In this document: one piece after another, positions 21,878 to 47,443 of the stretch
Layout: the number at the start of each line of letters is the position of its first letter
How positions within the stretch are numbered: position 1 is the first letter of the stretch
Origin: Lutraria lutraria
Taxonomy: Eukaryota; Mollusca; Bivalvia; Venerida; Mactridae
Length of the DNA: 64,000 nucleotides
Assembly (NCBI GenBank): GCA_964023205.1
Contig: OZ026847.1
Location: 3,904,819 to 3,968,818 of the forward strand
Reading direction: 5' to 3'
Position numbers and translations under genes: made by a program
The notes under the pieces: model-generated
The model's input: the letters and a program-made list of their open reading frames with translations, nothing else
Databases searched by the model: none
What the model was told of the DNA's origin: nothing

Positions 21878-21882
21878 ATCAT
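21878..21882. repeat. Target-site duplication ATCAT, left of element 1
   Basis: ATCAT directly precedes the left end TGTAG. It matches 47439-47443 and the single ATCAT of the empty paralogous site at 61154-61158. Confidence 0.85.
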
Positions 21883-22282
21883 TGTAGCAACGTTAAATGT
21901 CGCATCGACGCTAAATGTCGAATTTGACGTTATATGTCGCAAGGCTGACGCTAAATGTCGCAACCAACGCTAAATGTCGCAAAACCTCCTGACGCTATAT
22001 GTGGCATCTGTAACGCTAAATGTCGCAACAAATAGCACTGACGCTATATGTCGCAACATCAACGCTAAATGTCGCACTCATTCTTCAACCTCTATAATGC
22101 AGTTATCGTTCCCGCTACACTCGTATATGTTTAATAAATAATGGTTTCATCGTTCATGATAATGTTTAGTTAATCTCCTCCAAGATTTTTTTTTACATTT
22201 GCTCGTTTGAATTGGGGATTTTATTTTTTATCTTGGCATTTATTGTATATCGCCGTCGTTGGTGTATGCATGTGTGTGTGTG
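21883..22282 (+). repeat. Left terminal inverted repeat of element 1
   Basis: About 400 bp match the reverse complement of 47030-47438 with scattered substitutions and short indels. The outer 200 bp hold nine irregularly spaced 15-bp subterminal repeats of the form RACGYTAWATGTCGCA, alternating between CTAAATG and CTATATG types. These are plausible transposase-binding sites. The inner half is AT-rich, includes GATTTTATTTTTTATCTTGG, and ends near a TG run. Confidence 0.9.
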
Positions 22283-22327
22283 TTGATACAGAACGAGGCG
22301 TGATTGACTTTCACACTAACGATATGA

Positions 22328-22584
22328 TGTTTGTTTGTTTGTTTGTTACATCGGGCAATTATCCTAAATAGCTTTCCTTGACTTCATTTAGGCCTTAACC
22401 AGCACTAACCACATTCTATCCGTAAGCTTCTGTCAAGCTTTCCCACAAAATGTAGAAGTGGAGGACAATTTAACATGTAATACCTTCAGTCAAATGTGTC
22501 ACGGCATCGTGGGCTTGTCCGGGGCTCAAACTCACAACCTCGGTCATCAGACAAACGCTCTAACCACTGAGCTATCCGGGTGGG
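22328..22584 (-). mobile_element. tRNA-derived SINE inside element 1
   Basis: On the minus strand the element starts at 22584 with a tRNA-like head. A box A (TAGCTCAGTGGTTAGAGC) is followed by a box B-like GGTTGTGAGTTTGAGCC, and the element ends in a (TTTG)n-complement tail near 22330. CACTAACGATATGA flanks it on both sides (22314-22327 and 22585-22598), consistent with a 14-bp target duplication. That word is also part of the local 23-bp repeat, so the match could be partly coincidental. The mismatched box B and the lack of a folded 3' half argue against a functional tRNA gene. Confidence 0.75.
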
Positions 22585-22599
22585 CACTAACGATATGAA

Positions 22600-23364
22600 C
22601 TTTCGCACTAATGCCCCCATCACACCAGAGCACGTCCGCACCACGCTCATAAAGTTCCCATCACGTCCTGATGGACGTGGCGGGGACGGGGTAACACTCG
22701 AAAATAATGATGCACCCAGGTTCTCACTACGTCCTTACAACGTCTTTGTCAGGTTCTCACTGTGTCGATCATGTTCACAGTAAGTTCATTACACGTGCAG
22801 CTTCCCGTTGTCACCAGGTCTATTGTGTTTATACTACGTCCCAATTACGTGCGCACTACGTCCATGCTGACTGAACTGCGCTCTCCCTAGGTCCCAATAA
22901 CGTCCTCATTGCATTCACTAGCTCCGTATGTACACTGTAAAATGTGTCCATTTATTTTAACTGGTCATGATTGCCGAACAGAAGTGTTCTTTCTGCTGAT
23001 AGCCATGCACTAACACAACATTATCTAGGCTGCTTCATGTTCCTTTTTCTTCTAATTCGTATTTAGAAATAAAATGGGAATTTGAGCATCCAAAAAGGCT
23101 TGCTGTCCTGGTACAATAACAAATTGCATTCATTTGGTAACATATATTTGACTGGAAATGAAAGAATTGGGTATGAATCCAGTATTTATACCAAATTCTC
23201 AGAACCTGACAGGAACGTACTGGTCACCTGTTACAAACGTACTAAAGACGTGACGGAGCAAAATTACAACCTAGTGCTGTCTTCTGTAACGTGATGTGGA
23301 CGCACTATGGTCGTACACCTGGTTGAGACGTAGTGAGAACTATGTGTGTGAAGTTGGCAATGCA
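22600..23364. repeat. CGTCC-rich degenerate repeat zone, left arm
   Basis: Many imperfect short units of the form GTTCYCACTACGTCC or CACGTCC occur between about 22610 and 22930 and again at 23205-23345, separated by AT-rich DNA. The inverted arm has the same type of sequence at 44700-44960. Both zones abut the satellite array through the shared words GTGTGTGAAGTTGGCAATGC. No gene is seen. Confidence 0.6.
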
Positions 23365-26300
23365 ATCGACAATCGACAATCGACATTCAATGTCTAGCTC
23401 GACAATCGACATTCATCTCGACATTCGTGAAACAGGCTGTATGGCCATCATAATAATGTAAATTTCGAATGTCTAGCTAGACAATCGACATTCATCTCGA
23501 CATTCGAAAAACGAACTGTATAGCCGTCAAAGTAATGAAATTTCGAATGTCTAGCTCGACAATCGACATTCATCTCGACATTCGAAAAACGGACTGTATA
23601 TAGCCGTCAAAGTAATGAAATTTCGAATGTCTAGCTCGACAATCGACATTCATCTCGACATTCGAAAAACGAACTGTATAGCCGTCAAAGTAATGAAATT
23701 TCGAATGTCTAGCTAGACAATCGACATTCATCTCGACATTCGAAGTTACGACTGTATCGCTGTCAAAGTAAAGAAATTTCGAATGTCTAGCTAGACAATC
23801 GACATTCATCTCGACATTCGAAAAACGAACTGTATAGCCGTCAAAGTAATGAAATTTCGAATGCCTAGCTCGACAATCGACATTCATCTCGACATACGTA
23901 AAACAGACTGTATATAGCCGTCAAAGTAATGAAATTTCGAATGTCTAGCTCGACAATCGACATTCATCTCGACATTCGAAAAACGAACTGTATAGCCGTC
24001 AAAGTAAAGAAATTTCGAATGTCTAGCTAGACAATCGACATTCATCTCGACATACGAAAAACGGACTGTATCGCTGTCAAAGTAAAGAAATTTCGAATGT
24101 CTAGCTCGACAATCGACATTCATCTCGACATTCGAAAAACGAACTGTATAGCCGTCAAAGTAATGAAATTTCGAATGTCTAGCTAGACAATCGACATTCA
24201 TCTCGACATTCGAAGTTACGACTGTATCGCTGTCAAAGTAAAGAAATTTCGAATGTCTAGCTAGACAATCGACATTCATCTCGACATTCGAAAAACGAAC
24301 TGTATAGCCGTCAAAGTAATGAAATTTCGAATGCCTAGCTCGACAATCGACATTCATCTCGACATACGTAAAACAGACGGTATATAGCCGTCAAAGTAAT
24401 GAAATTTCGAATGTCTAGCTCGACAATCGACATTCATCTCGACATTCGAAAAACGAACTGTATAGCCGTCAAAGTAAAGAAATTTCGAATGTCTAGCTAG
24501 ACAATCGACATTCATCTCGACATACGAAAAACGGACTGTATCGCTGTCAAAGTAAAGAAATTTCGAATGTCTAGCTCGACAATCGACATTCATCTCGACA
24601 TTCGTGAAACAGGCTGTATGGCCATCATAATAATGTAAATTTCGAATGTCTGGCTCGACAATCGACATTCATCTCGACATTCGTAAAACAGACTGTATAT
24701 AGCCGTTAAAGTAATGAAATTTCGAATGTCTAGCTCGACAATCGACATCCATCTCGACATTCGAAAAACGAACTGTATATCGCCGTCAAAGTAAAGAAAT
24801 TTCGAATGTCTAGCTAGACAATCGACATGCATCTCGACATTCGAAAAACGAACTGTATAGCCGTCAAAGTAATGAAATTTCGAACGCCTAGCTCGACAAT
24901 CGACATTCATCTCGACATACGTAAAACAGACTGTATATAGCCGTCAAAGTAATGAAATTTCGAATGTCTAGCTCGACAATCGACATTCATCTCGACATTC
25001 GAAAAACGAACTGTATAGCCGTCAAAGTAAAGAATTTTCGAATGTCTAGCTAGACAATCGACATTCATTTCGACATTCGAAAAACGGACTGTATCGCTGT
25101 CAAAGTAAAGAAATTTCGAATGTCTAGCTCGACAATCGACATTCATCTCGACATTCGTGAAACAGGCTGTATGGCTATCATAATAATGTAAATTTCGAAT
25201 GTCTAGCTCGACAATCGACATCCATCTCGACATTCGAAAAACGAACTGTATATAGCCGTCAAAGTAATGAAATTTCGAATGTCTAGCTAGACAATCGACA
25301 TTCATCTCGACATTCGAAAAACGGACTGTATATAGCCGTCAAAGTAAAGAAATTTCGAATGTCTAGCTCGACAATCGACATTCATCTCGACATTCGAAAA
25401 ACGGAGTGTATATAGCCGTCAAAGTAAAGAAATTTCGAATGTCTAGCTCGACAATCGACATTCATCTCGACATTCGAAAAACGAACTGTATAGCCGTCAA
25501 AGTAATGAAATTTCGAATGTCTAGCTAGACAATCGACATTCATCTCGACATTCGAAGTTACGACTGTATCGCTGTCAAAGTAAAGAAATTTCGAATGTCT
25601 AGCTCGACAATCGACATTCATCTCGACATACGTAAAACAGACTGTATATAGCCGTCAAAGTAATGAAATTTCGAATGTCTAGCTCGACAATCGACATTCA
25701 TCTCGACATTCGAAAAACGAACTGTATAGCCGTCAAAGTAATGAAATTTCGAATGTCTAGCTAGACAATCGACATTCATCTCGACATTCGAAAAACGGAC
25801 TGTATCGCTGTCAAAGTAAAGAAATTTCGAATGTCTAGCTCGACAATCGACATTCATCTCGACATTCGTGAAACAGGCTGTATGGCCATCATAATAATGT
25901 AAATTTCGAATGTCTAGCTCGACAATCGACATTCATCTCGACATTCGTAAAACAAACTGTATATAGCCGTCAAAGTAATGAAATTTCGAATGTCTAGCTC
26001 GACAATCGACATCCATCTCGACATTCGAAAAACGAACTGTATATAGCCGTCAAAGTAATGAAATTTCGAATGTCTAGCTCGACAATCGACATTCATCTCG
26101 ACATTCGAAAAACGGACTGTATATAGCCGTCAAAGTACAGAAATTTCGAATGTCGAGCTCGACAATCAACATTCATCTCGACATTCGAAAAACGGACTGT
26201 ATATAGCCGTCAAAGTAAAGACATTTCGAATGTCTAGCTCGACAATCGACATTCATCTCGACATTCGTGAAACAGGCTGTATGGCTATCATAATAATGTA

Positions 26301-29300
26301 AATTTCGAATGTCTAGCTCGACAATCGACATCCATCTCGACATTCGAAAAACGAACTGTATATAGCCGTCAAAGTAATGAAATTTCGAATGTCTAGCTAG
26401 ACAATCGACATTCATCTCGACATTCGAAAAACGGACTGTATATAGCCGTCAAAGTAAAGAAATTTCGAATGTCTAGCTCGACAATCGACATTCATCTCGA
26501 CATTCGAAAAACGGAGTGTATATAGCCGTCAAAGTAAAGAAATTTCGAATGTCTAGCTCGACAATCGACATTCATCTCGACATTCGAAAAACGAACTGTA
26601 TAGCCGTCAAAGTAATGAAATTTCGAATGTCTAGCTAGACAATCGACATTCATCTCGACATTCGAAGTTACGACTGTATCGCTGTCAAAGTAAAGAAATT
26701 TCGAATGTCTAGCTCGACAATCGACATTCATCTCGACATACGTAAAACAGACTGTATATAGCCGTCAAAGTAATGAAATTTCGAATGTCTAGCTCGACAA
26801 TCGACATTCATCTCGACATTCGAAAAACGAACTGTATAGCCGTCAAAGTAATGAAATTTCGAATGTCTAGCTAGACAATCGACATTCATCTCGACATTCG
26901 AAAAACGGACTGTATCGCTGTCAAAGTAAAGAAATTTCGAATGTCTAGCTCGACAATCGACATTCATCTCGACATTCGTGAAACAGGCTGTATGGCCATC
27001 ATAATAATGTAAATTTCGAATGTCTAGCTCGACAATCGACATTCATCTCGACATTCGTAAAACAAACTGTATATAGCCGTCAAAGTAATGAAATTTCGAA
27101 TGTCTAGCTCGACAATCGACATCCATCTCGACATTCGAAAAACGAACTGTATATAGCCGTCAAAGTAATGAAATTTCGAATGTCTAGCTCGACAATCGAC
27201 ATTCATCTCGACATTCGAAAAACGGACTGTATATAGCCGTCAAAGTAAAGAAATTTCGAATGTCGAGCTCGACAATCAACATTCATCTCGACATTCGAAA
27301 AACGGACTGTATATAGCCGTCAAAGTAAAGACATTTCGAATGTCTAGCTCGACAATCGACATTCATCTCGACATTCGAAAAACGAACTGTATAGCCGTCA
27401 AAGTAATGAAATTTCGAATGTCTAGCTAGACAATCGACATTCATCTCGACATTCGAAAAACGAACTGTATAGCCGTCAAAGTAATGAAATTTCGAATGCC
27501 TAGCTCGACAATCGACATTCATCTCGACATACGTAAAACAGACTGTATATAGCCGTCAAAGTAATGAAATTTCGAATGTCTAGCTCGACAATCGACATTC
27601 ATCTCGACATTCGAAAAACGAACTGTATAGCCGTCAAAGTAAAGAAATTTCGAATGTCTAGCTAGACAATCGACATTCATCTCGACATTCGAAAAACGGA
27701 CTGTATCGCTGTCAAAGTAAAGAAATTTCGAATGTCTAGCTCGACAATCGACATTCATCTCGACATTCGTGAAACAGGCTGTATGACCATCATAATAATG
27801 TAAATTTCGAATGTCTAGCTCGACAATCGACATTCATCTCGACATTCGTAAAACAGACTGTATATAGCCGTTAAAGTAATGAAATTTCGAATGTCTAGCT
27901 CGACAATCGACATCCATCTCGACATTCGAAAAACGAACTGTATATAGCCGTCAAAGTAAAGAAATTTCGAATGTCTAGCTAGACAATCGACATTCATCTC
28001 GACATTCGAAAAACGGACTGTATATAGCCGTCAAAGTAAAGAAATTTCAAATGTCTAGCTCAACAATCGACATTCATCTCGACATTCGAAAAACGAACTG
28101 TATAGCCGTCAAAGTAATGAAATTTCGAATGTCTAGCTAGACAATCGACATTCATCTCGACATACGAAAAACGGACTGTATCGCTGTCAAAGTAAAGAAA
28201 TTTCGAATGTCTAGCTCGACAATCGACATTCATCTCGACATTCGTGAAACAGGCTGTATGGCCATCATAATAATGTAAATTTCGAATGTCTAGCTCGACA
28301 ATCGACATTCATCTCGACATTCGTAAAACAGATTGTATATAGCCGTTAAAGTAATGAAATTTCGAATGTCTAGCGCGACAATCGACATCCATCTCGACAT
28401 TCGAAAAACGAACTGTATATCGCCGTCAAAGTAAAGAAATTTCGAATGTCTAGCTAGACAATCGACATGCATCTCGACATTCGAAAAACGAACTGTATAG
28501 CCGTCAAAGTAATGAAATTTCGAACGCCTAGCTCGACAATCGACATTCATCTCGACATACGTAAAACAGACTGTATATAGACGTCAAAGTAATGAAATTT
28601 CGAATGTCTAGCTCGACAATCGACATTCATCTCGACATTCGAAAAACGAACTGTATAGCCGTCAAAGTAAAGAATTTTCGAATGTCTAGCTAGACAATCG
28701 ACATTCATTTCGACATTCGAAAAACGGACTGTATCGCTGTCAAAGTAAAGAAATTTCGAATGTCTAGCTCGACAATCGACATTCATCTCGACATTCGTGA
28801 AACAGGCTGTATGGCCATCATAATAATGTAAATTTCGAATGTCTAGCTCGACAATCGACATCCATCACGACATTCGAAAAACGAACTGTATATAGCCGTC
28901 AAAGTAATGAAATTTCGAATGTCTAGCTAGACAATCGACATTCATCTCGACATTCGAAAAACGGACTGTATATAGCCGTCAAAGTAAAGAAATTTCGAAT
29001 GTCTAGCTAGACAATCGACATTCATCTCGACATTCGAAAAACGGAGTGTATATAGCCGTCAAAGTAAAGAAATTTCGAATGTCTAGCTCGACAATCGACA
29101 TTCATCTCGACATTCGAAAAACGAACTGTATAGCCGTCAAAGTAATGAAATTTCGAATGTCTAGCTAGACAATCGACATTCATCTCGACATTCGAAGTTA
29201 CGACTGTATCGCTGTCAAGTAAAGAAATTTCGAATGTCTAGCTCGACAATCGACATTCATCTCGACATACGTAAAACAGACTGTATATAGCCGTCAAAGT

Positions 29301-31690
29301 AATGAAATTTCGAATGTCTAGCTCGACAATCGACATTCATCTCGACATTCGAAAAACGAACTGTATAGCCGTCAAAGTAATGAAATTTCGAATGTCTAGC
29401 TAGACAATCGACATTCATCTCGACATTCGAAAAACGGACTGTATCGCTGTCAAAGTAAAGAAATTTCGAATGTCTAGCTCGACAATCGACATTCATCTCG
29501 ACATTCGTGAAACAGGCTGTATGGCCATCATAATAATGTAAATTTCGAATGTCTAGCTCGACAATCGACATTCATCTCGACATTCGTAAAACAAACTGTA
29601 TATAGCCGTCAAAGTAATGAAATTTCGAATGTCTAGCTCGACAATCGACATCCATCTCGACATTCGAAAAACGAACTGTATATAGCCGTCAAAGTAATGA
29701 AATTTCGAATGTCTAGCTCGACAATCGACATTCATCTCGACATTCGAAAAACGGACTGTATATAGCCGTCAAAGTAAAGAAATTTCGAATGTCGAGCTCG
29801 ACAATCGACATTCATCTCGACATTCGAAAAACGGACTGTATATAGCCGTCAAAGTAAAGACATTTCGAATGTCTAGCTCGACAATCGACATTCATCTCGA
29901 CATTCGAAAAACGAACTGTATAGCCGTCAAAGTAATGAAATTTCGAATGTCTAGCTAGACAATCGACATTCATCTCGACATTCCAAAAACGAACTGTATA
30001 GCCGTCAAAGTAATGAAATTTCGAATGCCTAGCTCGACAATCGACATTCATCTCGACATACGTAAAACAGACTGTATATAGCCGTCAAAGTAATGAAATT
30101 TCGAATGTCTAGCTCGACAATCGACATTCATCTCGACATTCGAAAAACGAACTGTATAGCCGTCAAAGTAAAGAAATTTCGAATGTCTAGCTAGACAATC
30201 GACATTCATCTCGACATTCGAAAAACGGACTGTATCGCTGTCAAAGTAAAGAAATTTCGAATGTCTAGTTAGACAATCGACATTCATCTCGACATTCGTG
30301 AAACAGGCTGTATGACCATCATAATAATGTAAATTTCGAATGTCTAGCTCGACAATCGACATTCATCTCGACATTCGTAAAACAGACTGTATATAGCCGT
30401 TAAAGTAATGAAATTTCGAATGTCTAGCTCGACAATCGACATCCATCTCGACATTCGAAAAACGAACTGTATAGCCGTCAAAGTAATGAAATTTCGAATG
30501 TCTAGCTAGACAATCGACATTCATCTCGACATTCGAAGTTACGACTGTATCGCTGTCAAAGTAAAGAAATTTCGAATGTCTAGCTCGACAATCGACATTC
30601 ATCTCGACATTCGTGAAACAGGCTGTATGGCCATCATAATAATGTAAATTTCGAATGTCTAGCTCGAAAATCGACATTCATCTCGACATTCGTAAAACAG
30701 ACTGTATATAGCCGTTAAACTAATGAAATTTCGACTGTCTAGCTCGACAATCGACATCCATCTCGACATTCGAAAAACGAACTGTATATAGCCGTCAAAG
30801 TAATGAAATTTCGAATGTCTAGCTCGACAATCGACATTCATCTCGACATTCGAAAAACGAACTGTATAGCCGTCAAAGTAATGAAATTTCGAATGTCTAG
30901 CTCGACAATCGGCATTCATCTCGACATTCGAAAAACGAACTGTATAGCCGTCAAAGTAATGAAATTTCGAATGTCTAGCTCGACAATCGACATTCATCTC
31001 GACATTCGAAAAACGAACTGTATATAGCCGTCAAAGTAATGAAACTGCGAATGTCTAGCTAGACAATCGACATTCATCTCGACATTCGAAGTTACGACTG
31101 TATCGCCGTCAAAGTAAAGAAATTTCGAATGTCTAGCTAGACAATCGACATTCATCTCGACATTCGAAAAACGAACTGTATAGCCGTCAAAGTAATGAAA
31201 TTTCGAATGTCTAGCTCGACAATCGACATTCATCTCGACATTCGAAAAACGAACCGTATAATCGTCAAAGTAATGAAATTTCGAATGTCTAGCTCGACAA
31301 TCGACATTCATCTCGACATTCGTAAAACAGACTGTATATAGCCGTTAAAGTAATGAAATTTCGAATGTCTAGCTCGACAATCGACATTCATCTCGACATT
31401 CGAAAAACGGACTGTATACAGCCGTCAAAGTAATGAAATTTCGAATGTCTAGCTAGACAATCGACATTCATCTTGACATTCGAAAAACGGACTGTATCGC
31501 CGTCAAAGTAAAGAAATTTCGAATGTCTAGCTCGACAATCGACATTCATCTCGACATTCGAAAAACGAACTGTATTGCCGTCAAAGTAATGTAATTTTCG
31601 AATGTCTAGCTCGACAATCGACATTCTTCTCGGCATTCGAAGTTACGACTGTATCGGTGTCATAGTAATTGAATTTTCGAATGTCAAGCT
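23365..31690 (-). repeat. Left satellite array, 78-80-bp monomer (~105 copies)
   Basis: Tandem monomers of 78 or 80 bp contain TTCGAATGTCTAGCT, CAATCGACATTCATCTCGAC, CATTCGAA and GCCGTCAAAGTAATG. Each has an internal inverted repeat (TTCGAATGTC ... GACATTCGAA), so single strands could fold monomer by monomer. Length variants differ by TATAGCC versus TATATAGCC; other variants carry AAGTTACGAC or GTGAAACAGGCTGTATGGCC. Higher-order repeats are evident: the pattern at 25382 recurs at 26492 (1110 bp), and that at 26728 recurs at 29257 (2529 bp). The array is inverted relative to 33033-44690. The open frames across it (MNVDCRARHSKFHYFDGY...) come from 78-bp periodicity and break at each 80-bp monomer. 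Confidence 0.97.
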
Positions 31691-31945
31691 ATACATATGA
31701 AAATGTGAGGTTAAAAAAACTGGTAGTAACCAAGAAAATATTTCCATGTCAACATCAACCTGACTAGACTTAGCATTTAGACAATTAACATACTTCCAAT
31801 ATTCTCTGGGGGAATTAAATTTGTTCTCATTTTTGGACTTGATTTTTATCAAAACCAAGTCCTTTGTAATCGTTGACTTATATTTGTCGCTGGACTCCAT
31901 AACAGCTTGGTTAAAAGAATGCCACATAAAGGAAATAGTGCGCAA
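31643..31945 (-). pseudogene. Possible non-LTR retrotransposon ORF2 fragment (endonuclease-RT linker)
   Basis: The frame contains KSTITKDLVLIKIKSKN followed by FNSPREYWKYVNCLNAKSS. A basic stretch followed by SPREYWKYVN is characteristic of the region between the endonuclease and reverse transcriptase domains of several LINE clades. The frame has no catalytic motif and runs into satellite at its end, so it is at most a short relic. Confidence 0.4.
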
Positions 31946-33032
31946 CTAAATGGTATGTTTATATAGAAGTATCTGGAATCTTTCCCCAATTAAGTGTGTC
32001 AGATCTAAATACATTTCAAATCATTCTATCGTAACTACATGGAAGGAGTCATGTATCTAAATAAGTGCTTGTCGGTAGATACATGAGATTTTCAAATGCG
32101 TATAATTAACACCGCGTAGTCACTGTCCAATAAAATATCTTGCCGTAAAAGTAGTTCTACTTTCGGTCTTCGTTCAATATTTCAGAAAAATCTCCACGGA
32201 CGTATTCATGCATTTGCAACAATCTACCATCGATGTGAGTGTTTTGTGCCTTTCTAACATTTCTTAATATTACAAAGCGAATTCTCATTTAATCGTATTC
32301 ACCAACTAGTGTTATTTTGATGACGGAATCGCTATTTATAGACTCACTCCCCGCAGTGGCTAGTAGCAAAGCGTAACCGATGTGGGGAGTTTGATTTATC
32401 AAAGGTTGAATGTTAAAACTGCGGCTTAAGAATAATAATTCGAGTCGCTAAATACGAACGTAAATTACTGGATACGTGCTTTTAAAATTTACTGTTTAAG
32501 AGTTCCTTTTACGCCAGATTATTTAGAATTACATAATCACGTCTGAATTTCATGCAACATAGGGTTAACTATAGGTCATATAGGTCTTACTCTACTGTGT
32601 CAGGACCTTTTTGATTTGAGTGACCCTGAATGTGTTCAATGCGACGATGTTCTGTTGTGTTAAAACCAGAAGAATCAATGTTTGTATTTACTGTTACTGA
32701 AGTGTTGTTTACTAGTTTTGTACAACAAAGAGTTTTTAATGCAATTAAATTGTCCTCAATTAATGTGCTAATCATTAAACTTTCCAATATCAGGCTTTTT
32801 CATTTTAAAATTTTAGCAAAGAGACTATAGTAAAGCCCTAGCTTATGTCATTTACCTATATGCATATGACCTGCATTACAATATGAATGAAAAATCGGTC
32901 CGAAATTTTAAATGTTAAAATATTTGTATGGGCTCGAACGATGTGGGTACACATTTCTCTCTTTTGTCTCGTATGGTAAAAATCAAGTCCGACAGTACTT
33001 TCAGGACTTTGATTCTTATTTTGGTCTTAAAA
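31691..33032. other. Unique core of element 1 between the two arrays
   Basis: About 1.34 kb of non-satellite DNA separates the arrays. A minus-strand frame to 31945 resembles a LINE fragment. A further minus-strand frame (32787-32587, MESLMISTLIEDNLIALKTL to GPDTVE) is open for 66 codons but unrecognised. A ~45-bp block at 32965-33014 recurs at 49183-49234. No transposase motif was seen. A chromosomal segment captured by the element is as likely as an element gene. Confidence 0.6.
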
Positions 33033-36000
33033 GTCGAGATGAATGTCGATTGTCGAGCTAGACATTCGAAATTTCATTACTTTAACGGCTATATACAGTC
33101 TGTATTACGAATGTCGAGATGAATGTCGATTGTCGAGCTAGACATTCGAAATTTACATTATTATGATGGCCATACAGCCTGTTTCACGAATGTCGAGATG
33201 AATGTCGATTGTCGAGCTAGACATTCGAAATTTCTTTACTTTGACGGCGATATAGTCCGTTTTTCGAATGTCGATGAATGTCGATTGTCTAGCTAGACAT
33301 TCGAAATTTCTTTACTCTGACGGCGCGATACAGTCGTAACTTCGAATGTCGAGATGAATGTCGATTGTCTAGCTAGACATTCGAAATTTCATTACTTTGA
33401 CGGCTATACAGTTCGTTTTTCGAATGTCGAGCTAGACATTCGAAATTTACATTATTATGATGGCCATACAGCCTGTTTCACGAATGGCGAGATGAATGTC
33501 GATTGTCGAGCTAGACATTCGAAATTTCATTACTTTAACGGCTATATACAGTCTGTTTTACGAATGTCGAGATGAATGTCGATTGTCGAGCTAGACATTC
33601 GAAATTTCATTACTTTGACGGCTATACAGTTCGTTTTTCGAATGTCGAGATGAATGTCGATTGTCTAGCTAGACATTCGAAATTGCATTACTTTGACGGC
33701 TATATACAGTCTGTTTTACGAATGTCGAGATGAATGTCGATTGTCGAGCTAGACATTCGAACTTTCATTACTTTGACGGCTATACAGTTCGTTTTTCGAA
33801 TGTCGAGATGAATGTCGATTGTCTAGCTAGACATTCGAAATTTCTTTACTTTGACGTCGATATAGTCGAAACTTCGAATGTCGAGATGAATGTCGATTGT
33901 CTAGCTGGACATTCGAAATTTCATTACTTTGACGTCTATACAGTTCGTTTTTCGAATGTCGAGATGAATGTCGATTGTCTAGCTAGACATTCGAAATTTC
34001 ATTACTTTGACGGCTATATACAGTCCGTTTTTCGAATGTCGAGATGAATGTCGATTGTCTAGCTAGACATTCGAAATTTCTTTACTTTGACGGCTATACA
34101 GTTCGTTTTTCGAATGTCGAGATGAATGTCGATTGTCGAGCTAGACATTCGAAATTTCATTACTTTGACGGCTATATACAGTCTGTTTTACGAATGTCGA
34201 GATGAAAGTCGATTGTCGAGCTAGACATTCGAACTTTCATTACTTTGACGGCTATACAGTTCGTTTTTCGAATGTCGAGATGAATGTCGATTGTCTAGCT
34301 AGACATTCGAAATTTCTTTACTTTGACGGCGATACAGTCGTAACTTCGAATGTCGAGATGAATGTCGATTGTCGAGCTAGACATTCGAAATTTCATTACT
34401 TTGACGGCTATACAGTTCGTTTTTCGAATGTCGAGATGAATGTCGATTGTCTAGCTAGACATTCGAAATTTCATTACTTTGACGGCTATATACAGTCCGT
34501 TTTTCGAATGTCGAGATGAATGTCGATTGTCGAGCTAGACATTCCAAATTTCTTTACTTTGACGGCGATACAGTCCGTTTTTCGAATGTCGAGATGAATG
34601 TCGATTGTCTAGCTAGACATTCGAAATTTCATTACTTTAACGGCTATATACAGTCTGTTTTACGAATGTCGAGATGAATGTCGATTGTCGAGCTAGACAT
34701 TCGAAATTTACATTATTATGATGGCCATACAGCCTGTTTCACGAATGTCGAGATGAATGTCGATTGTCGAGCTAGACATTCGAAATTTCTTTACTTTTAC
34801 GGCTATATACAGTCCGTTTTTCGAATGTCGAGATGAATGTCGATTGTCGAGCTAGACATTCGAAATTTCTTTACTTTGACGGCGATACAGTCCGTTTTTC
34901 GAATGTCGAGATGAATGTCGATTGTCGAGCTAGACATTCGAAATTTCATTACTTTAACGGCTATATACAGTCTGTTTTACGAATGTCGAGATGAATGTCG
35001 ATTGTCGAGCTAGACATTCGAAATTTACATTATTATGATGGCCATACAGCCTGTTTCACGAATATCGAGATGAATGTCGATTGTCGAGCTAGACATTCGA
35101 AATTTCTTTACTTTGACGGCGATACAGTCCGTTTTTCGAATGTCGAGATGAATGTCGATTGTCTAGCTAGACATTCGAAATTTCATTACTTTGACTGCTA
35201 TATACAGTTCGTTTTTCGAATGTCGAGATGAATGTCGATTGTCTAGCTAGACATTCGAAATTTCTTTACTTTGACGGCGATACAGTCGTAACTTCGAATG
35301 TCGAGATGAATGTCGATTGTCTAGCTAGACATTCGAAATTTCATTACTTTGACGGCTATATACAGTCTGTTTTACGAATGTCGAGATGAATGTCGATTGT
35401 CGAGCTAGACATTCGAACTTTCATTACTTTGACGGCTATACAGTTCGTTTTTCGAATGTCGAGATGAATGTCGATTGTCTAGCTAGACATTCGAAATTTC
35501 TTTACTTTGACGGCGATAAAGTCGCAACTTCGAATGTCGAGATGAATGTCGATTGTCTAGCTGGACATTCGAAATTTCATTACTTTGACGGCTATACAGT
35601 TCGTTTTTCGAATGTCGAGATGAATGTCGATTGTCTAGCTAGACATTCGAAATTTCATTACTTTGACGGCTATATAGAGTCCTTTTTTCGAATGTCGAGA
35701 TGAATGTCGATTGTCGAGCTAGACATTCGAAATTTCTTTACTTTGACGGCGATACAGTCCGTTTATCGAATGTCGAGATGAATGTCGATTGTCTAGCTAG
35801 ACATTCGAAATTTCTTCACTTTGACGGCTATACAGTTCGTTTTTCGAATGTCGAGATGAATGTCGATTGTCGAGCTAGACATTCGAAATTTCATTACTTT
35901 AACGGCTATATACAGTCTGTTTTACGAATGTCGAGATGAATGTCGATTGTCGAGCTAGACATTCGAAATTTACATTATTATGATGGCCATACAGCCTGTT

Positions 36001-39000
36001 TCACGAATGTCGAGATGAATGTCGATTGTCGAGCTAGACATTCGAAATTTCTTTACTTTGACGGCGATACAGTCCGTTTTTCGAATGTCGAGATGAATGT
36101 CGATTGTCTAGCTAGACATTCGAAATTTCATTACTTTGACTGCTATATACAGTTCGTTTTTCGAATGTCGAGATGAATGTCGATTGTCTAGCTAGACATT
36201 CGAAATTTCTTTACTTTGACGGCGATACAGTCGTAACTTCGAATGTCGAGATGAATGTCGATTGTCTAGCTAGACATTCGAAATTTCATTACTTTGACGG
36301 CTATATACAGTCTGTTTTACGAATGTCGAGATGAATGTCGATTGTCGAGCTAGACATTCGAACTTTCATTACTTTGACGGCTATACAGTTCGTTTTTCGA
36401 ATGTCGAGATGAATGTCGATTGTCTAGCTAGACATTCGAAATTTCTTTACTTTGACGGCGATAAAGTCGTAACTTCGAATGTCGAGATGAATGTCGATTG
36501 TCTAGCTGGACATTCGAAATTTCATTACTTTGACGGCTATACAGTTCGTTTTTCGAATGTCGAGATGAATGTCGATTGTCTAGCTAGACATTCGAAATTT
36601 CATTACTTTGACGGCTATATACAGTCCGTTTTTCGAATGTCGAGATGAATGTCGATTGTCGAGCTAGACATTCGAAATTTCTTTACTTTGACGGCGATAC
36701 AGTCCGTTTTTCGAATGTCGAGATGAATGTCGATTGTCTAGCTAGACATTCGAAATTTCATTACTTTAACGGCTATATACAGTCTGTATTACGAATGTCG
36801 AGATGAATGTCGATTGTCGAGCTAGACATTCGAAATTTACATTATTATGATGGCCATACAGCCTGTTTCACGAATGTCGAGATGAATGTCGATTGTCGAG
36901 CTAGACATTCGAAATTTCTTTACTTTGACGGCGATATAGTCCGTTTTTCGAATGTCGATGAATGTCGATTGTCTAGCTAGACATTCGAAATTTCTTTACT
37001 CTGACGGCGCGATACAGTCGTAACTTCGAATGTCGAGATGAATGTCGATTGTCTAGCTAGACATTCGAAATTTCATTACTTTGACGGCTATACAGTTCGT
37101 TTTTCGAATGTCGAGCTAGACATTCGAAATTTACATTATTATGATGGCCATACAGCCTGTTTCACGAATGGCGAGATGAATGTCGATTGTCGAGCTAGAC
37201 ATTCGAAATTTCATTACTTTAACGGCTATATACAGTCTCTTTTACGAATGTCGAGATGAATGTCGATTGTCGAGCTAGACATTCGAAATTTCATTACTTT
37301 GACGGCTATACAGTTCGTTTTTCGAATGTCGAGATGAATGTCGATTGTCTAGCTAGACATTCGAAATTGCATTACTTTGACGGCTATATACAGTCTGTTT
37401 CACGAATGTCGAGATGTATGTCGATTGTCGAGCTAGACATTCGAACTTTCATTACTTTGACGGCTATACAGTTCGTTTTTCGAATGTCGAGATGAATGTC
37501 GATTGTCTAGCTAGACATTCGAAATTTCTTTACTTTGACGGCGATATAGTCGTAACTTCGAATGTCGAGATGAATGTCGATTGTCTAGCTGGACATTCGA
37601 AATTTCATTACTTTGACGTCTATACAGTTCGTTTTTCGAATGTCGAGATGAATGTCGATTGTCTAGCTAGACATTCGAAATTTCATTACTTTGACGGCTA
37701 TATACAGTCCGTTTTTCGAATGTCGAGATGAATGTCGATTGTCGAGCTAGACATTCGAAATTTCTTTACTTTGACGGCGATACAGTTCGTTTTTCGAATG
37801 TCGAGATGAATGTCGATTGTCTAGCTAGACATTCGAAAATTCTTTACTTTGATGGCTATACAGTTCGTTTTTCGAATGTCGATGAATGTCGATTGTCTAG
37901 CTAGACATTCGAAATTTCTTTACTCTGACGGCGCGATACAGTCGTAACTTCGAATGTCGAGATGAATGTCGATTGTCGAGCTAGACATTCGAAATTTCTT
38001 TACTTTGACGGCGATACAGTTCGTTTTTCGAATGTCGAGATGAATGTCGATTGTCTAGCTAGACATTCGAAATTTCTTTACTTTGATGGCTATACAGTTC
38101 GTTTTTCGAATGTCGAGATGAATGTCGATTGTCGAGCTAGACATTCGAAATTTCATTACTTTGACGGCTATATACAGTCTGTTTTACGAATGTCGAGATG
38201 AATGTCGATTGTCTAGCTAGACATTCGAAATTTCTTTACTTTGACGGCGATACAGTCGTAACTTCGAATGTCGAGATGAATGTCGATTGTCTAGCTAGAC
38301 ATTCGAAATTTCATTACTTTGACGGCTATATACAGTCTGTTTTACGAATGTCGAGATGAATGTCGATTGTCGAGCTAGACATTCGAACTTTCATTACTTT
38401 GACGGCTATACAGTTCGTTTTTCGAATGTCGAGATGAATGTCGATTGTCTAGCTAGACATTCGAAATTTCTTTACTTTGACGGCGATAAAGTCGCAACTT
38501 CGAATGTCGAGATGAATGTCGATTGTCTAGCTGGACATTCGAAATTTCATTACTTTGACGGCTATACAGTTCGTTTTTCGAATGTCGAGATGAATGTCGA
38601 TTGTCTAGCTAGACATTCGAAATTTCATTACTTTGACGGCTATATAGAGTCCGTTTTTCGAATGTCGAGATGAATGTCGATTGTCGAGCTAGACATTCGA
38701 AATTTCTTTACTTTGACGGCGATACAGTCCGTTTATCGAATGTCGAGATGAATGTCGATTGTCTAGCTAGACATTCGAAATTTCTTCACTTTGACGGCTA
38801 TACAGTTCGTTTTTCGAATGTCGAGATGAATGTCGATTGTCGAGCTAGACATTCGAAATTTCATTACTTTAACGGCTATATACAGTCTGTTTTACGAATG
38901 TCGAGATGAATGTCGATTGTCGAGCTAGACATTCGAAATTTACATTATTATGATGGCCATACAGCCTGTTTCACGAATGTCGAGATGAATGTCGATTGTC

Positions 39001-42000
39001 GAGCTAGACATTCGAAATTTCTTTACTTTGACGGCGATACAGTCCGTTTTTCGAATGTCGAGATGAATGTCGATTGTCTAGCTAGACATTCGAAATTTCA
39101 TTACTTTGACTGCTATATACAGTTCGTTTTTCGAATGTCGAGATGAATGTCGATTGTCTAGCTAGACATTCGAAATTTCTTTACTTTGACGGCGATACAG
39201 TCGTAACTTCGAATGTCGAGATGAATGTCGATTGTCTAGCTAGACATTCGAAATTTCATTACTTTGACGGCTAAATACAGTCTGTTTTACGAATGTCGAG
39301 ATGAATGTCGATTGTCGAGCTAGACATTCGAACTTTCATTACTTTGACGGCTATACAGTTCGTTTTTCGAATGTCGAGATGAATGTCGATTGTCTAGCTA
39401 GACATTCGAAATTTCTTTACTTTGACGGCGATAAAGTCGTAACTTCGAATGTCGAGATGAATGTCGATTGTCTAGCTGGACATTCGAAATTTCATTACTT
39501 TGACGGCTATACAGTTCGTTTTTCGAATGTCGAGATGAATGTCGATTGTCTAGCTAGACATTCGAAATTTCATTACTTTGACGGCTATATACAGTCCGTT
39601 TTTCGAATGTCGAGATGAATGTCGATTGTCGAGCTAGACATTCGAAATTTCTTTACTTTGACGGCGATACAGTCCGTTTTTCGAATGTCGAGATGAATGT
39701 CGATTGTCTAGCTAGACATTCGAAATTTCATTACTTTAACGGCTATATACAGTCTGTATTACGAATGTCGAGATGAATGTCGATTGTCGAGCTAGACATT
39801 CGAAATTTACATTATTATGATGGCCATACAGCCTGTTTCACGAATGTCGAGATGAATGTCGATTGTCGAGCTAGACATTCGAAATTTCTTTACTTTGACG
39901 GCGATATAGTCCGTTTTTCGAATGTCGATGAATGTCGATTGTCTAGCTAGACATTCGAAATTTCTTTACTCTGACGGCGCGATACAGTCGTAACTTCGAA
40001 TGTCGAGATGAATGTCGATTGTCTAGCTAGACATTCGAAATTTCATTACTTTGACGGCTATACAGTTCGTTTTTCGAATGTCGAGCTAGACATTCGAAAT
40101 TTACATTATTATGATGGCCATACAGCCTGTTTCACGAATGGCGAGATGAATGTCGATTGTCGAGCTAGACATTCGAAATTTCATTACTTTAACGGCTATA
40201 TACAGTCTCTTTTACGAATGTCGAGATGAATGTCGATTGTCGAGCTAGACATTCGAAATTTCATTACTTTGACGGCTATACAGTTCGTTTTTCGAATGTC
40301 GAGATGAATGTCGATTGTCTAGCTAGACATTCGAAATTGCATTACTTTGACGGCTATATACAGTCTGTTTCACGAATGTCGAGATGTATGTCGATTGTCG
40401 AGCTAGACATTCGAACTTTCATTACTTTGACGGCTATACAGTTCGTTTTTCGAATGTCGAGATGAATGTCGATTGTCTAGCTAGACATTCGAAATTTCTT
40501 TACTTTGACGGCGATATAGTCGTAACTTCGAATGTCGAGATGAATGTCGATTGTCTAGCTGGACATTCGAAATTTCATTACTTTGACGTCTATACAGTTC
40601 GTTTTTCGAATGTCGAGATGAATGTCGATTGTCTAGCTAGACATTCGAAATTTCATTACTTTGACGGCTATATACAGTCCGTTTTTCGAATGTCGAGATG
40701 AATGTCGATTGTCGAGCTAGACATTCGAAATTTCTTTACTTTGACGGCGATACAGTTCGTTTTTCGAATGTCGAGATGAATGTCGATTGTCTAGCTAGAC
40801 ATTCGAAATTTCTTTACTTTGATGGCTATACAGTTCGTTTTTCGAATGTCGAGATGAATGTCGATTGTCGAGCTAGACATTCGAAATTTCATTACTTTGA
40901 CGGCTATATACAGTCTGTTTTACGAATGTCGAGATGAATGTCGATTGTCGAGCTAGACATTCGAACTTTCTTTACTTTGACGGCTATACAGTTCGTTTTT
41001 CGAATGTCGAGATGAATGTCGATTGTCTAGCTAGACATTCGAAATTTCTTTACTTTGACGGCGATACAGTCGTAACTTCGAATGTCGAGATGAATGTCGA
41101 TTGTCGAGCTAGACATTCGAAATTTCATTACTTTGACGGCTATACAGTTCGTTTTTCGAATGTCGAGATGAATGTCGATTGTCGAGCTAGACATTCGAAA
41201 TTTCTTTACTTTGACGGCGATACAGTCCGTTTTTCGAATGTCGAGATGAATGTCGATTGTCTAGCTAGACATTCGAAATTTCATTACTTTAACGGCTATA
41301 TACAGTCTGTTTTACGAATGTCGAGATGAATGTCGATTGTCGAGCTAGACATTCGAAATTTACATTATTATGATGGCCATACAGCCTGTTTCACGAATGT
41401 CGAGATGAATGTCGATTGCCGAGCTAGACATTCGAAATTTCTTTACTTTGACGGCTATATACAGTCCGTTTTTCTAATGTCGAGATGAATGTCGATTGTC
41501 GAGCTAGACATTCGAAATTTCTTTACTTTGACGGCGATAGAGTCCGTTTTTCGAATGTCGAGATGAATGTCGATTGTCGAGCTAGACATTCGAAATTTCA
41601 TTACTTTAACGGCTATATACAGTCTGTTTTACGAATGTCGAGATGAATGTCGATTGTCGAGCTAGACATTCGAAATTTACATTATTATGATGGCCATACA
41701 GCCTGTTTCACGAATGTCGAGATGAATGTCGATTGTCGAGCTAGACATTCGAAATTTCTTTACTTTGACGGCGATACAGTTCGTTTTTCGAATGTCGAGA
41801 TGAATGTCGATTGTCTAGCTAGACATTCGAAATTTCATTACTTTGACTGCTATATACAGTTCGTTTTTCGAATGTCGAGATGAATGTCGATTGTCTAGCT
41901 AGACATTCGAAATTTCTTTACTTTGACGGCGATACAGTCGTAACTTCGAATGTCGAGATGAATGTCGATTGTCTAGCTAGACATTCGAAATTTCATTACT

Positions 42001-44690
42001 TTGACGGCTATATACAGTCTGTTTTACGAATGTCGAGATGAATGTCGATTGTCGAGCTAGACATTCGAACTTTCATTACTTTGACGGCTATACAGTTCGT
42101 TTTTCGAATGTCGAGATGAATGTCGATTGTCTAGCTAGACATTCGAAATTTCTTTACTTTGACGGCGATAAAGTCGTAACTTCGAATGTCGAGATGAATG
42201 TCGATTGTCTAGCTGGACATTCGAAATTTCATTACTTTGACGGCTATACAGTTCGTTTTTCGAATGTCGAGATGAATGTCGATTGTCTAGCTAGACATTC
42301 GAAATTTCATTACTTTGACGGCTATATACAGTCCGTTTTTCGAATGTCGAGATGAATGTCGATTGTCGAGCTAGACATTCGAAATTTCTTTACTTTGACG
42401 GCGATACAGTCCGTTTTTCGAATGTCGAGATGAATGTCGATTGTCTAGCTAGACATTCGAAATTTCTTCACTTTGACGGCTATACAGTTCGTTTTTCGAA
42501 TGTCGAGATGAATGTCGATTGTCGAGCTAGACATTCGAACTTTCATTACTTTGACGGCTATATACAGTCTGTTTTACGAATGTCGAGATGAATGTCGATT
42601 GTCGAGCTAGACATTCGAACTTTCATTACTTTGACGGCTATACAGTTCGTTTTTCGAATGTCGAGATGAATGTCGATTGTCTAGCTAGACATTCGAAATT
42701 TCTTTACTTTGACGGCGATACAGTCGTAACTTCGAATGTCGAGATGAATGTCGATTGTCTAGCTGGACATTCGAAATTTCATTACTTTGACGGCTATACA
42801 GTTCGTTTTTCGAATGTCGAGATGAATGTCGATTGTCTAGCTAGACATTCGAAATTTCATTACTTTGACGGCTATATACAGTCCGTTTTTCGAAAGTCGA
42901 GATGAATGTCGATTGTCGAGCTAGACATTCGAAATTTCATTACTTTGACGGCTATACAGTTCGTTTTTCGAATGTCGAGATGAATGTCGATTGTCTAGCT
43001 AGACATTCGAAATTTCATTACTTTGACGGCTATATTCAGTCCGTTTTTCGAATGTCGAGATGAATGTCGATTGTCGAGCTAGACATTCGAAATTTCTTTA
43101 CTTTGACGGCGATACAGTCCGTTTTTCGAATGTCGAGATGAATGTCGATTGTCTAGCTAGACATTCGAAATTTCTTTACTTTGACGGCTATACAGTTCGT
43201 TTTTCGAATGTCGAGATGAATGTCGATTGTCGAGCTAGACATTCGAAATTTACATTTTTATGATGGCCATACAGCCTGTTTCACGAATGTCGAGATGAAT
43301 GTCGATTGTCGAGCTAAACATTCGAAATTTCTTTACTTTGACGGCTATATACAGTCCGTTTTTCGAATGTCGAGATGAATGTCGATTGTCGAGCTAGACA
43401 TTCGAAATTTCTTTACTTTGACGGCGATACAGTCCGTTTTTCGAATGTCGAGATGAATGTCGATTGTCGAGCTAGACATTCGAAATTTCATTACTTTAAC
43501 GGCTATATACAGTCTGTTTTACGAATGTCGAGATGAATGTCGATTGTCGAGCTAGACATTCGAAATTTACATTATTATGATGGCCATACAGCCTGTTTCA
43601 CGAATATCGAGATGAATGTCGATTGTCGAGCTAGACATTCGAAATTTCTTTACTTTGACGGCGATACAGTCCGTTTTTCGAATGTCGAGATGAATGTCGA
43701 TTGTCTAGCTAGACATTCGAAATTTCATTACTTTGACTGCTATATACAGTTCGTTTTTCGAATGTCGAGATGAATGTCGATTGTCTAGCTAGACATTCGA
43801 AATTTCTTTACTTTGACGGCGATACAGTCGTAACTTCGAATGTCGAGATGAATGTCGATTGTCTAGCTAGACATTCGAAATTTCATTACTTTGACGGCTA
43901 TATACAGTCCGTTTTTCGAATGTCGAGATGAATGTCGATTGTCGAGCTAGACATTCGAAATTTCTTTACTTTGACGGCGATACAGTCCGTTTTTCGAATG
44001 TCGAGATGAATGTCGATTGTCTAGCTAGACATTCGAAATTTCTTTACTTTGACGGCTATACAGTTCGTTTTTCGAATGTCGAGATGAATGTCGATTGTCG
44101 AGCTAGACATTCGAACTTTCATTACTTTGACGGCTATATACAGTCTGTTTTACGAATGTCGAGATGAATGTCGATTGTCGAGCTAGACATTCGAACTTTC
44201 ATTACTTTGACGGCTATACAGTTCGTTTTTCGAATGTCGAGATGAATGTCGATTGTCTAGCTAGACATTCGAAATTTCTTTACTTTGACGGCTATACAGT
44301 TCGTTTTTCGAATGTCGAGATGAATGTCGATTGTCTAGCTAGACATTCGAAATTTCATTACTTTGACGGCTATACAGTTCGTTTTTCGAATGTCGAGATG
44401 AATGTCGATTGTCGAGCTAGACATTCGAAATTTCATTACTTTGACGGCTATATACAGTCTGTTTTACGAATGTCGAGATGAATGTCGATTGTCGAGCTAG
44501 ACATTCGAAATTTCATTACATTGACGGCTATATACAGTTCGTTTTTCGAATGTCGAGATGAATGTCGATTGTCGAGCTAGACATTCGAAATTTACATTAT
44601 TATGATGGCCATATAGCCTGTTTCACGAATGTCGAGATGAATGTCGATTGTCGAGCTAGACATTGAATGTCGATTGTCGATTGTCGATTG
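33033..44690 (+). repeat. Right satellite array, same monomer in opposite orientation (~147 copies)
   Basis: This is the reverse-complement orientation of the left array, with monomers like TCGAGATGAATGTCGATTGT then CGAGCTAGACATTCGAAATT. It carries the same variant classes (GTCGTAACTTCG, GGCCATACAGCCTGTTTCAC, TATATACAG versus TATACAG). A 2970-bp higher-order repeat is clear: the variant order from 35386 onward recurs from 38356, including rare variants such as ATGTATGTCG at 37414 and 40384 and the shortened monomer near 36957 and 39927. A further partial copy starts at 42038. Its outer end (GATTGCATTGCCAACTTCAC) mirrors the outer end of the left array. Confidence 0.97.
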
Positions 44691-44974
44691 CATTGCCAAC
44701 TTCACACACATGTGAGAACTTCATTGACGTAACAAAAGCGTGGTAACAACACAGTGACAACGCGGTGAAAATCGCTTGCTGTGTTTTCAAGTCCGCACCA
44801 CGCTTCTTCTGCGTCAGTGAAGTTCCAACCACGTCCTTCGCGTCCACGGAGACCATACCACGCTTGAACCGGTTCCTACTGCGTCCTCATCACGTTAATC
44901 AGGTTCTTGCCACATCCTGTCAGGACGTGGTGGACGTAGTGCAAACGCGGCTCTAGTGTGATGGGGGTATAACG
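44691..44974. repeat. CGTCC-rich degenerate repeat zone, right arm
   Basis: This is the inverted counterpart of the left-arm zone. It has imperfect units of the form GTTCCYACYRCGTCC and ACGTGGTGGACGTAG and adjoins GTGTGATGGGGGTAT, whose complement (CCCCCATCACAC) occurs at 22615-22626. No gene is seen. Confidence 0.55.
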
Positions 44975-45275
44975 ACATTGACTCTCCAACTAATGATATG
45001 GATTCTCACACTAATTATGTGCACTCTCGCAGTATTGATATATATTCACACAATAACGATTTGAATTTTCCCACTAATGATATAGATTCGCGCACTAAGG
45101 ATATCGACTTATCAAACGAACCATAAATACTGTCCCATTAATGATAATGAGATTCGCACACTTACGACTTGGACTCTCCCACTAATGATATAGAAAATAC
45201 ACACTAACGACATAGAATTGCACACTATTGGTGTCACTAACGATATGAACTCTCATACTAACGATATCGACTATA
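44975..45275 (+). repeat. 23-bp degenerate tandem repeat, right arm of element 1
   Basis: About a dozen imperfect units of the form ATTCTCACACTAATGATATG run in tandem. Single matching units occur on the left arm at 22303-22327 and 22585-22612, where the SINE interrupts them. This forms another repeat tier between the terminal repeat and the satellite. Confidence 0.7.
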
Positions 45276-47029
45276 GTAATAGTGATTCATCAGAATTTCA
45301 GACTCGCACTAAACATTTGCGAGAAATAATTACATTGTAAACTAAAACGGAAACCGAAACACTTTCATAAAGAAACATGTAGAACTACCGCCTGAGATTT
45401 GGTGTATAATTGTTAAAGCTCGTTTTGAAACTAAATCATTTGTCGCGATACACTCTTAAAAGGGTGAATAGATTATTCAAATATATTGTGAGCAAGACAA
45501 AGCCGCCGCGATTGTATCTCAACCCTGACCGGTTCCGTGATTTATCTTTATCACCTAAAACTGTAAGAAAAAATATTTGACTAGCTGGGTCTGACAGCGG
45601 GTTATTGCAAGCAATCCGTGATGTGATAACACATTCCTTATGGGTCAATGCATGTCTCTTTCTGTGGATGGTCTGATTTTTGACCGTATAGAATAGACGG
45701 CATATGGTATAGACGTCCATGGCATTAGTAATGAGATGTTCAAGATATTAGGATCTTAATAGCCAAAATTCAAAGGTGGTCAAATTTGGCTTTTTTTCTT
45801 AAATTACTCTATAAAATATATTATTTGACAATATATGAAAGAGGTTTACTATGTAATTTTATAAAACTAATGGTTTACATGACAGAAAAAAACTATAATT
45901 ATCCTTCTAAATGGCTAAACCCCGAATATCATAGATCAATAAATGATCATAGTTTTATTATTAAAAAAAACAATTGCACACGAAATAATGCATTTGTAGT
46001 TGTATTTCACTTACATGTAATTGTATATCAATAATTATATCTAAAACGTACATGCATCAGATATTAGTGCAGTGTATTTTTTTAATGCTTCGGAGACTTA
46101 TTATTTACGATCTATGTAGGCAAAAAAGAAAAAGAAAATAGCGCTATGATATATATTTAAGGGGCATAACTTATATTCAAAATAATCCCCCATTTCTAAC
46201 AAACATAATAAAACCTTATCAGGCTTACTGTTGCACAATACATCTTAAAGTAACCCTAGCGTAAACAAATGTTCCAATTTCTGGCATTATTTAGCCAACC
46301 TATAAGAGTCACTTCATTAAATTAAAACACTTTTTCATCCTAAGTATGTTCTAAGATATTCAAAAATAAAGTTTAAAGAAAACATAGAAAGATACAAGAA
46401 ATGTCTTTAAAAAGACAGTCGCGAAGTTGTTTTAATGTTATTTACACTACTAGTATTGAAACCAAAAGTATAATCTTTATGAAATTCCTAAATTTCCGCT
46501 ATGTGACATGTGAAAACAACACAACATCGCTAGCAGTCCAATTAGGTCGCGCCTTAGAATGTTAATGTTAGGTCAGCCAAATAAATTACGTATTTAGTCA
46601 TATCTACTTTATATCAATTCCAATAAATGTAAAAAGTTTGCCAAGAACGGTATATAACATTATTTCGATGACTACCAATATACATACAACTATCTTCTAG
46701 TAGTTGTATGTATATTGGTAGTCATAAGAGCGAACGTGGTGGGTGGGGTAATTTTTTCTAAACAAGCGTCTGTGGATGTATGTGTTAGACGTAAGTCCTT
46801 TCAGCTTGGAATAAGAGTATACATATTAATAGCTTAACCAAGTTGTTTTACAGGTAAGAGTTCCAGCAATATGACATTCTGTATATAGATTGATAGGATT
46901 TCCCTCAAACAAATGATGTTCGTTGATAAACTGGTAGGATTTGTACCTTCCTTTCTAAAAGTGAATAGTCTACCACCGGGCAGTCGCTCCTCGTTACTCT
47001 ACCTCTTGGCCATCATTTCCCGTTCTAAC
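45276..47029. other. Right-arm segment of element 1 without left-arm counterpart
   Basis: About 1.75 kb of AT-rich DNA has no recognisable partner in the left arm, which is shorter. Short open frames (for example 45436-45720 minus and 45786-46034 plus) show no family resemblance. It contains the perfect hairpin at 46668-46725. It could be a secondary insertion or sequence lost from the left arm. Confidence 0.5.
46668..46725. repeat. Perfect 25-bp inverted repeat with 8-nt loop
   Basis: ATGACTACCAATATACATAC and five further bases (46668-46692) are exactly complementary to 46701-46725, with TCTTCTAG between. A perfect arm of this length in otherwise diverged DNA is notable. It could be a tiny hairpin element, a deletion product of a foldback element, or a structured RNA stem. 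Confidence 0.9.
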
Positions 47030-47438
47030 AATGCACACATGTACACACCGGCGACGGCGATATATAATAAATGCCAAGATAAAAAATAAAATCCCCAATT
47101 CAAACGAGCAAATGTAAAAAAAAACTTGGAGGAGATTAACTAAACATTATCATGAACGGAGGAACCATTATTTATTAAACACATACGAGTGTGTAGGGGT
47201 GTAGCAGGAACGATAACTCTGCATTATAGAGGTTGAAGAATGAGTGCGACATTTAGCGTTGATGTTGCGACATATAGCGTCAGTGCTATTTGTTGCGACA
47301 TTTAGCGTTACAGATGCGACATATAGCGTCAGGAGGTTTTGCGACATTTAGCGTTGGTTGCGACATTTAGCGTCAGCCTTGCGACATATAACGTCAAATG
47401 CGACATTTAGCGTCGATGCGACATTTAACGTTGCTACA
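47030..47438 (-). repeat. Right terminal inverted repeat of element 1
   Basis: This is the inverted counterpart of 21883-22282, with the same nine subterminal repeats read as TGCGACATTTAGCGT or TGCGACATATAGCGT. Small differences (for example an extra GGGGTGTA near 47196) show that the two ends have diverged since they were last homogenised. Confidence 0.9.
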
Positions 47439-47443
47439 ATCAT
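47439..47443. repeat. Target-site duplication ATCAT, right of element 1
   Basis: ATCAT directly follows the right end CTACA and continues as AAACCTTG, exactly as in the empty site at 61154-61158. Confidence 0.85.

Follow-up and report, generated by a model that had tools for sequence, protein, structure and literature searches.

Does the satellite-rich stretch at positions 21883-47438 represent one giant transposon, or elements lodged one within another? The locus lies in a window of 64,000 nucleotides (the whole stretch of DNA that was analysed, positions 3904819-3968818 of the source contig) from the 728.5 Mb genome assembly of the bivalve Lutraria lutraria, and all coordinates given here are those of the window. 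A preliminary description had taken the stretch for a single foldback-type transposon of 25.6 kb carrying about 20 kb of satellite, with its empty site in the same window. We consider it likely that the region 23342-44711 is instead a second insertion, a foldback transposon sitting within a transposon of 4-5 kb, and that its satellite arms probably grew in place.

The outer element begins with TGTAG at 21883 and ends with CTACA at 47438. Its parts are as follows:

21878-21882, left copy of the outer 5-bp target duplication ATCAT, present once in the paralogous empty site
21883-22276, plus strand, outer left terminal inverted repeat, containing tandem repeats of about 20 bp of the AACGCTAAATGTCGC type; its terminal 20-mer is found 366 times in the genome
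44721-47033, remaining body of the outer element, pieces of which recur collinearly in other outer copies
47034-47438, minus strand, outer right terminal inverted repeat
47439-47443, right copy of the outer 5-bp target duplication ATCAT
61154-61158, empty site of the outer element, a single ATCAT in a tandem paralogue

These ends had been named in the preliminary description, and the ATCAT duplication on both sides bears them out. The terminal repeats measure 394 and 405 bp and show 12 substitutions in 393 aligned bases. The suspected empty site was confirmed by alignment: the paralogue runs continuously over the joined flanks, with mismatches at 35 of 280 and 58 of 487 aligned bases, and holds one ATCAT. 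This empty site belongs to the outer element. A 58-bp palindrome (46668-46725, 91.5% over its length) lies in the right body of the element.

A genome search for the outer ends, using the terminal 20-mer with at most two mismatches, gave 366 matches (171 forward and 195 reverse), and the reversed-pattern control gave none. From the first 100 of these places, 64 fell into 32 facing pairs of exact ends separated by less than 8 kb; this limit means that further long outer copies would escape the sample. The 32 copies range from 170 to 7,604 bp with a median of 4,596.5 bp, close to the 4,177 bp that the window copy would measure without the inner insertion, and 27 of them are flanked by perfect 5-bp duplications of varied sequence. 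The TGTAG...CTACA ends are thus those of a common transposon family of 4-5 kb. None of the sampled copies holds the satellite array, and 31 are free of any satellite. The exception, L041, has two inverted monomers elsewhere in the element; the pair (L041:1680-1896) forms a strong hairpin (z -11.85) with no evident duplication, its left flank ending in GGGACAGCCCTA and its right flank running on with GACA repeats. Satellite was also absent from four of the 36 unpaired ends, examined as 3 kb loci (L008, L009, L012 and L013).

The satellite itself occupies a separate unit with the following parts:

23333-23341, left copy of the inner 9-bp target duplication GTGAGAACT
23342-31690, plus strand, inner left arm, a 97-bp exact mirror tip followed by 78-bp satellite (104 monomers scored)
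31691-33033, inner loop of 1.34 kb
33034-44711, minus strand, inner right arm, 78-bp satellite running the opposite way (145 monomers scored) with the mirror tip at its end
44712-44720, right copy of the inner 9-bp target duplication GTGAGAACT

The inner insertion (21,370 bp) lies between two copies of GTGAGAACT that abut both tips, and this sequence occurs only twice in the window when both strands are counted. For a test of the joint, 100 bp from each side were joined and aligned to the 32 outer copies. Ten copies (11 sites) span the array position, and nine of these read GTGAGAACT followed directly by TCATTGAC, uninterrupted; in the tenth, L024, the alignment has a break at this point, and the remaining 22 gave no alignment through this position. 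When pieces of the window were compared by BLAST with the first 20 outer copies, position 23341 likewise adjoined 44712, with an overlap of about 9 bp. The 22-bp inner tip, with up to four substitutions allowed, is absent from all 32 copies. Since the target is uninterrupted in other outer copies, we conclude that the array, loop and second array make up an insertion distinct from the outer element and flanked by a 9-bp duplication of its own.

This result bears directly on the notion of one 25.6 kb foldback with TGTAG ends, in which the satellite would be native cargo or an arm. The outer ends, the 5-bp duplication and the paralogous empty site would all be expected of such a unit, but the array is in none of the 32 outer copies with ends less than 8 kb apart, and the position where the window has a 9-bp duplication is exactly uninterrupted in nine of them. 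The uninterrupted site rules out a single element, and we give a unit of this kind next to no probability. The foldback-type carrier with satellite arms, as first described, is sound for 23342-44711, but not for the TGTAG...CTACA unit of 25.6 kb. A nested insertion can look like one giant element if only one set of ends is checked.

The inner element has the features of a foldback, namely long inverted arms of tandem repeats around a middle part, and a target duplication with an empty site. The arms are 8.3 and 11.7 kb long and hold about 20 kb of satellite in total (about 250 monomers), in agreement with the earlier observation of a single satellite in two opposed arrays. The tip sequence is ATGTGTGTGAAGTTGGCAATGCAATCGAC, and both arms are identical over the first 97 bp inward from the tips. 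The satellite core CGACAATCGACATTC is already found within the terminal 47 bp, which places the start of the repeat right at the tip of the inner element. Over the first four steps of 240 bp (about 960 bp) the arms match at 98.8, 97.5, 97.9 and 98.8%, and over the next six at 89.5-94.9%; the arm ends show 20 differences in 1,003 aligned bases. Two short parts of the loop resemble sequence in L022, there outside the outer element, and in L027. No Pfam match above the cut-off was obtained in the four loop frames scanned (of 12 listed with at least 45 amino acids).

The mirror tips, the 9-bp duplication and the exact empty site together suggest a cut-and-paste step, in which a transposase acting in trans may have excised and inserted the inner element. 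Mutator elements produce target duplications of 8-11 bp, commonly 9 bp, and the duplication seen here would fit a Mutator-like enzyme, as judged from one insertion. Arrival of the array without a transposase, by reinsertion of an extrachromosomal satellite circle or by ectopic exchange followed by inversion, is very improbable in our view. Satellites are thought to spread by circle reinsertion or ectopic exchange, and the inverted two-monomer hairpin in L041, with no evident duplication, would agree with such a route; in the window, on the other hand, the 9-bp duplication and the exact mirror tips of 97 bp coincide precisely with the place where the empty copies show an exact joint.

How the arms reached their present length can be approached through the monomers. 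Mean monomer identity is 0.900 and 0.895 within the arms and 0.895 between them, and the outer 12 monomers of the two arms are collinear at 0.924-1.00, against this between-arm mean. In the right arm a block of 32 monomers is repeated 37 monomers further on at 99.92%, and in the left arm a block of 14 monomers is duplicated at 99.91%. If runs of five or more monomers are counted, 27 reach 98.5% in the right arm, five in the left and none between the arms; at 97% the figures are 41, 11 and five. Because each arm has near-identical duplicated blocks of its own, some of the array growth at least came after the two arms had separated, and it is likely that the arms grew independently. The inner element would thus have arrived with much shorter arms, and unequal exchange or other local amplification would have lengthened each arm separately; we infer growth in place after insertion as the simplest reading.

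The alternative is that the inner foldback jumped at full or nearly full length, with about 20 kb of satellite mobile as a unit. The intact 9-bp duplication and the exact mirror tips around 21.4 kb agree with such a jump, as do the monomer variants common to both arms: the right-arm match of left monomers is 92.6-100% (mean 98.0%), and seven distinct monomers are identical in the two arms. The arms nonetheless differ in length by 40%, each has its own near-identical blocks, and transposition efficiency usually drops with transposon length, as an excerpt of a paper on Galileo states (PMC3688188). We therefore regard a full-length jump as unlikely. The preliminary description would make the satellite mobile as one unit of about 20 kb, which the data do not establish: blocks of up to 99.9% identity are private to each arm, and no run of five or more monomers at 98.5% or above is shared, a pattern that suggests growth after the arms had separated.

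Growth in place has its own difficulties. The mobility of the inner element rests on one insertion, and no transposase was found in the loop and outer body, where ten frames of the 39 listed were scanned and none gave a Pfam match above the cut-off. The monomer variants shared by the arms imply that monomer diversity in the arrays predates the separation of the arms. With a seed formed by the outer 12 monomers of each arm, 87.1% of the deeper monomers (196 of 225) find a match of at least 95%, and random deep blocks of the same 12+12 design do better (mean 96.3%, 200 draws). The outer 12 monomers as the seed of both arrays are thus compatible with the data, but the control does not favour them. 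The array lengths, finally, were taken from the assembly without reads.

This last point raises the question of whether the array lengths or the inverted arm were made in part by the assembler. There are near-identical blocks in the arrays, and an adjacent stretch of 9.5 kb is repeated in tandem at 99.989% (1-9518 and 10839-20357, with a period of about 10.84 kb, from the left edge of the window). This repeat either arose by duplication very recently or is an artefact of the assembly; it is a warning on the local assembly, and the joints underlying the nesting are untouched by it. Against an artefact stand the junctions, where the two tips meet one and the same interrupted target and the 9-bp duplication is correct, and the arms, which differ both at the tips (20 of 1,003 bases) and in block structure, unlike a copied arm. 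The window contains no N. An artefact of this kind seems to us very unlikely.

Two further layers were found inside the outer element:

22328-22584, minus strand, an insertion resembling a short interspersed nuclear element (SINE), with a 14-bp duplication CACTAACGATATGA at 22314-22327 and 22585-22598
22614-44967, a middle-layer element with termini CCCCCATCACAC...GTGTGATGGGGG, about 975 bp without the inner insertion 23342-44711

The SINE-like insertion has, in our reading, a tRNA-like head; ARAGORN found no tRNA in the window, this insertion included. It is matched in 22 of the 32 outer copies and must therefore be older than the window copy. The middle element is bounded by the CCCCCATCACAC terminus and its mirror. 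Its termini are paired 0.97-1.09 kb apart in seven of the 32 copies (L017, L021, L022, L024, L025, L028 and L036) and are single or several in L014, L016, L032 and L033, while L019, L020, L023, L026, L029 and L040 align through the joint without the middle element, with a few bases missing there. The seven copies that carry it have seven different 5-bp duplications, so that the outer family does take nested inserts with it when it moves. Movement of the whole nest, array included, is conceivable; none of the 32 sampled outer copies holds the array.

These layers suggest an order of events. The outer family would first have gained the SINE and, in some copies, the middle element of about 1 kb. 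Next, an outer copy may have landed next to one member of a group of several paralogous gene segments. The satellite foldback would have entered that outer copy last, most simply after it had settled there.

Comparison with known elements, for which we drew on excerpts of the papers cited, places the inner element closest in design to Tetris, a foldback of Drosophila virilis whose inverted arms measure up to 1,735 bp and hold tandem repeats (PMC4079207), as judged by description. The internal tandem repeats of Tetris amplify to satellite-like arrays, in which as many as 66 units of 220 bp are found, its middle is non-coding, its duplications are 8-10 bp, and its authors place it near Mutator and propose that the larger arrays may have disrupted transposition (PMC4079207). 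In Tetris the repeats are preceded on the outer side by a flanking domain that measures up to 866 bp, whereas in the inner element the repeat is reached within about 25-50 bp of the tip. The inner element further differs in its arms of 8.3 and 11.7 kb, in the expanded array inside intact ends, in its exact empty sites and in its bivalve host.

Galileo, a foldback-like element of the P superfamily, resembles the inner element in having tandem repeats in its long inverted arms, their number differing between the arms of one copy, and these repeats hold extra transposase-binding sites (PMC3573991, PMC3688188). As described there, however, its longest arms are about 1.26 kb, its duplications are 7 bp and its transposase is known. 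Tm1, a Mutator/foldback element of root-knot nematodes (PMC3169594), shares composite inverted repeats and mostly 9-bp duplications; it has an internal motif of about 14 bp in varying number, and its arms are 93% alike on average. It differs by its short unit, by asymmetric terminal motifs of 7 bp that lie outside the inverted repeat and by members with a putative transposase, according to the same excerpt.

A parallel in bivalves is provided by oyster satellites that reside on non-autonomous mobile elements (PMC8268682, PMC7492417). Their carriers are of the Helentron type, and CgiSat01 elements hold one to ten internal repeats, while CgiSat01 arrays of more than 100 monomers are dominantly standalone in the account excerpted (PMC8268682); the inner element, in contrast, has about 250 monomers inside intact ends. 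Scale, the repeat at the tip and the kept ends around about 250 monomers set the present case apart. Among the literature titles listed, which took in Tetris, Tm1, Galileo and bivalve satellitomes, none describes a mollusc element of such size and kind, with slight coverage of subscription papers.

The outer family is reminiscent of Ginger2/TDD (PMC2836005) in its termini, TGTAG fitting the TGTNR pattern, and in its 5-bp duplications, as in TDD-4 and TDD-5. Ginger2/TDD inverted repeats measure 45-297 bp among the table rows listed in that paper. Other Ginger2 families have 4-bp duplications at RTATAY targets (PMC2836005), whereas the outer family has varied 5-bp duplications (27 of 32 copies), and it is not assigned to Ginger2/TDD. 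Open frames of at least 150 amino acids were present only in L015 and L023 among the 20 of 32 outer copies checked, and no integrase was recognised among them; the L015 frame is a simple repeat and that of L023 is reverse-transcriptase-like and nested. An autonomous member of the outer family may exist at another locus.

We also considered AATGTCG as a transposase-binding motif common to the outer ends and the satellite; it matches the window 486 times where 14.6 matches are expected. It was rejected, since 151 of 500 base-shuffles of the outer repeat also gave a common word as long as the 8 bp observed. Five IMG/VR contigs have an 18-mer in common with the outer repeat, in mutually similar context, and none of them matched the window by BLAST at 1e-3. 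The satellite core had no exact match in the genome_contigs collection, four end and satellite strings were not found printed in the literature, and Rfam at gathering scores gave no match in the window.

Elsewhere in the window, three frames on the minus strand resemble short-chain collagen C4 (20544-21101, 54267-54980 and 62811-63494); the outer element lies near one of them and its empty site near another. The one frame searched had its best matches in Mercenaria mercenaria proteins (50-58% identity). Another tandem repeat, with units of about 144, 179 and 322 bp, forms opposed blocks at 54915-56858 and 59609-60328, which are 88-92% alike and about 2.7 kb apart, and is possibly another foldback-like arrangement.

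It has long been asked how satellite arrays come to occupy new loci. In the known cases compared here, there are either few repeats inside a mobile element, or large arrays that stand alone or lie in disrupted elements. The inner element offers a large two-armed array together with its tips, its duplication and nine exact empty sites, so that arrival and growth can be told apart. If its relatives prove to be short-armed, a satellite has been caught being born from a foldback in place; if they are long-armed, satellite arrays themselves jump. More tentatively, and with some doubt on our part, there may be a bivalve foldback family whose arms are satellite, which jumps with 9-bp duplications and whose landings seed arrays that can exceed 8-11 kb per arm with the ends intact. 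If this were true, transposon and satellite would be the same thing at different stages.

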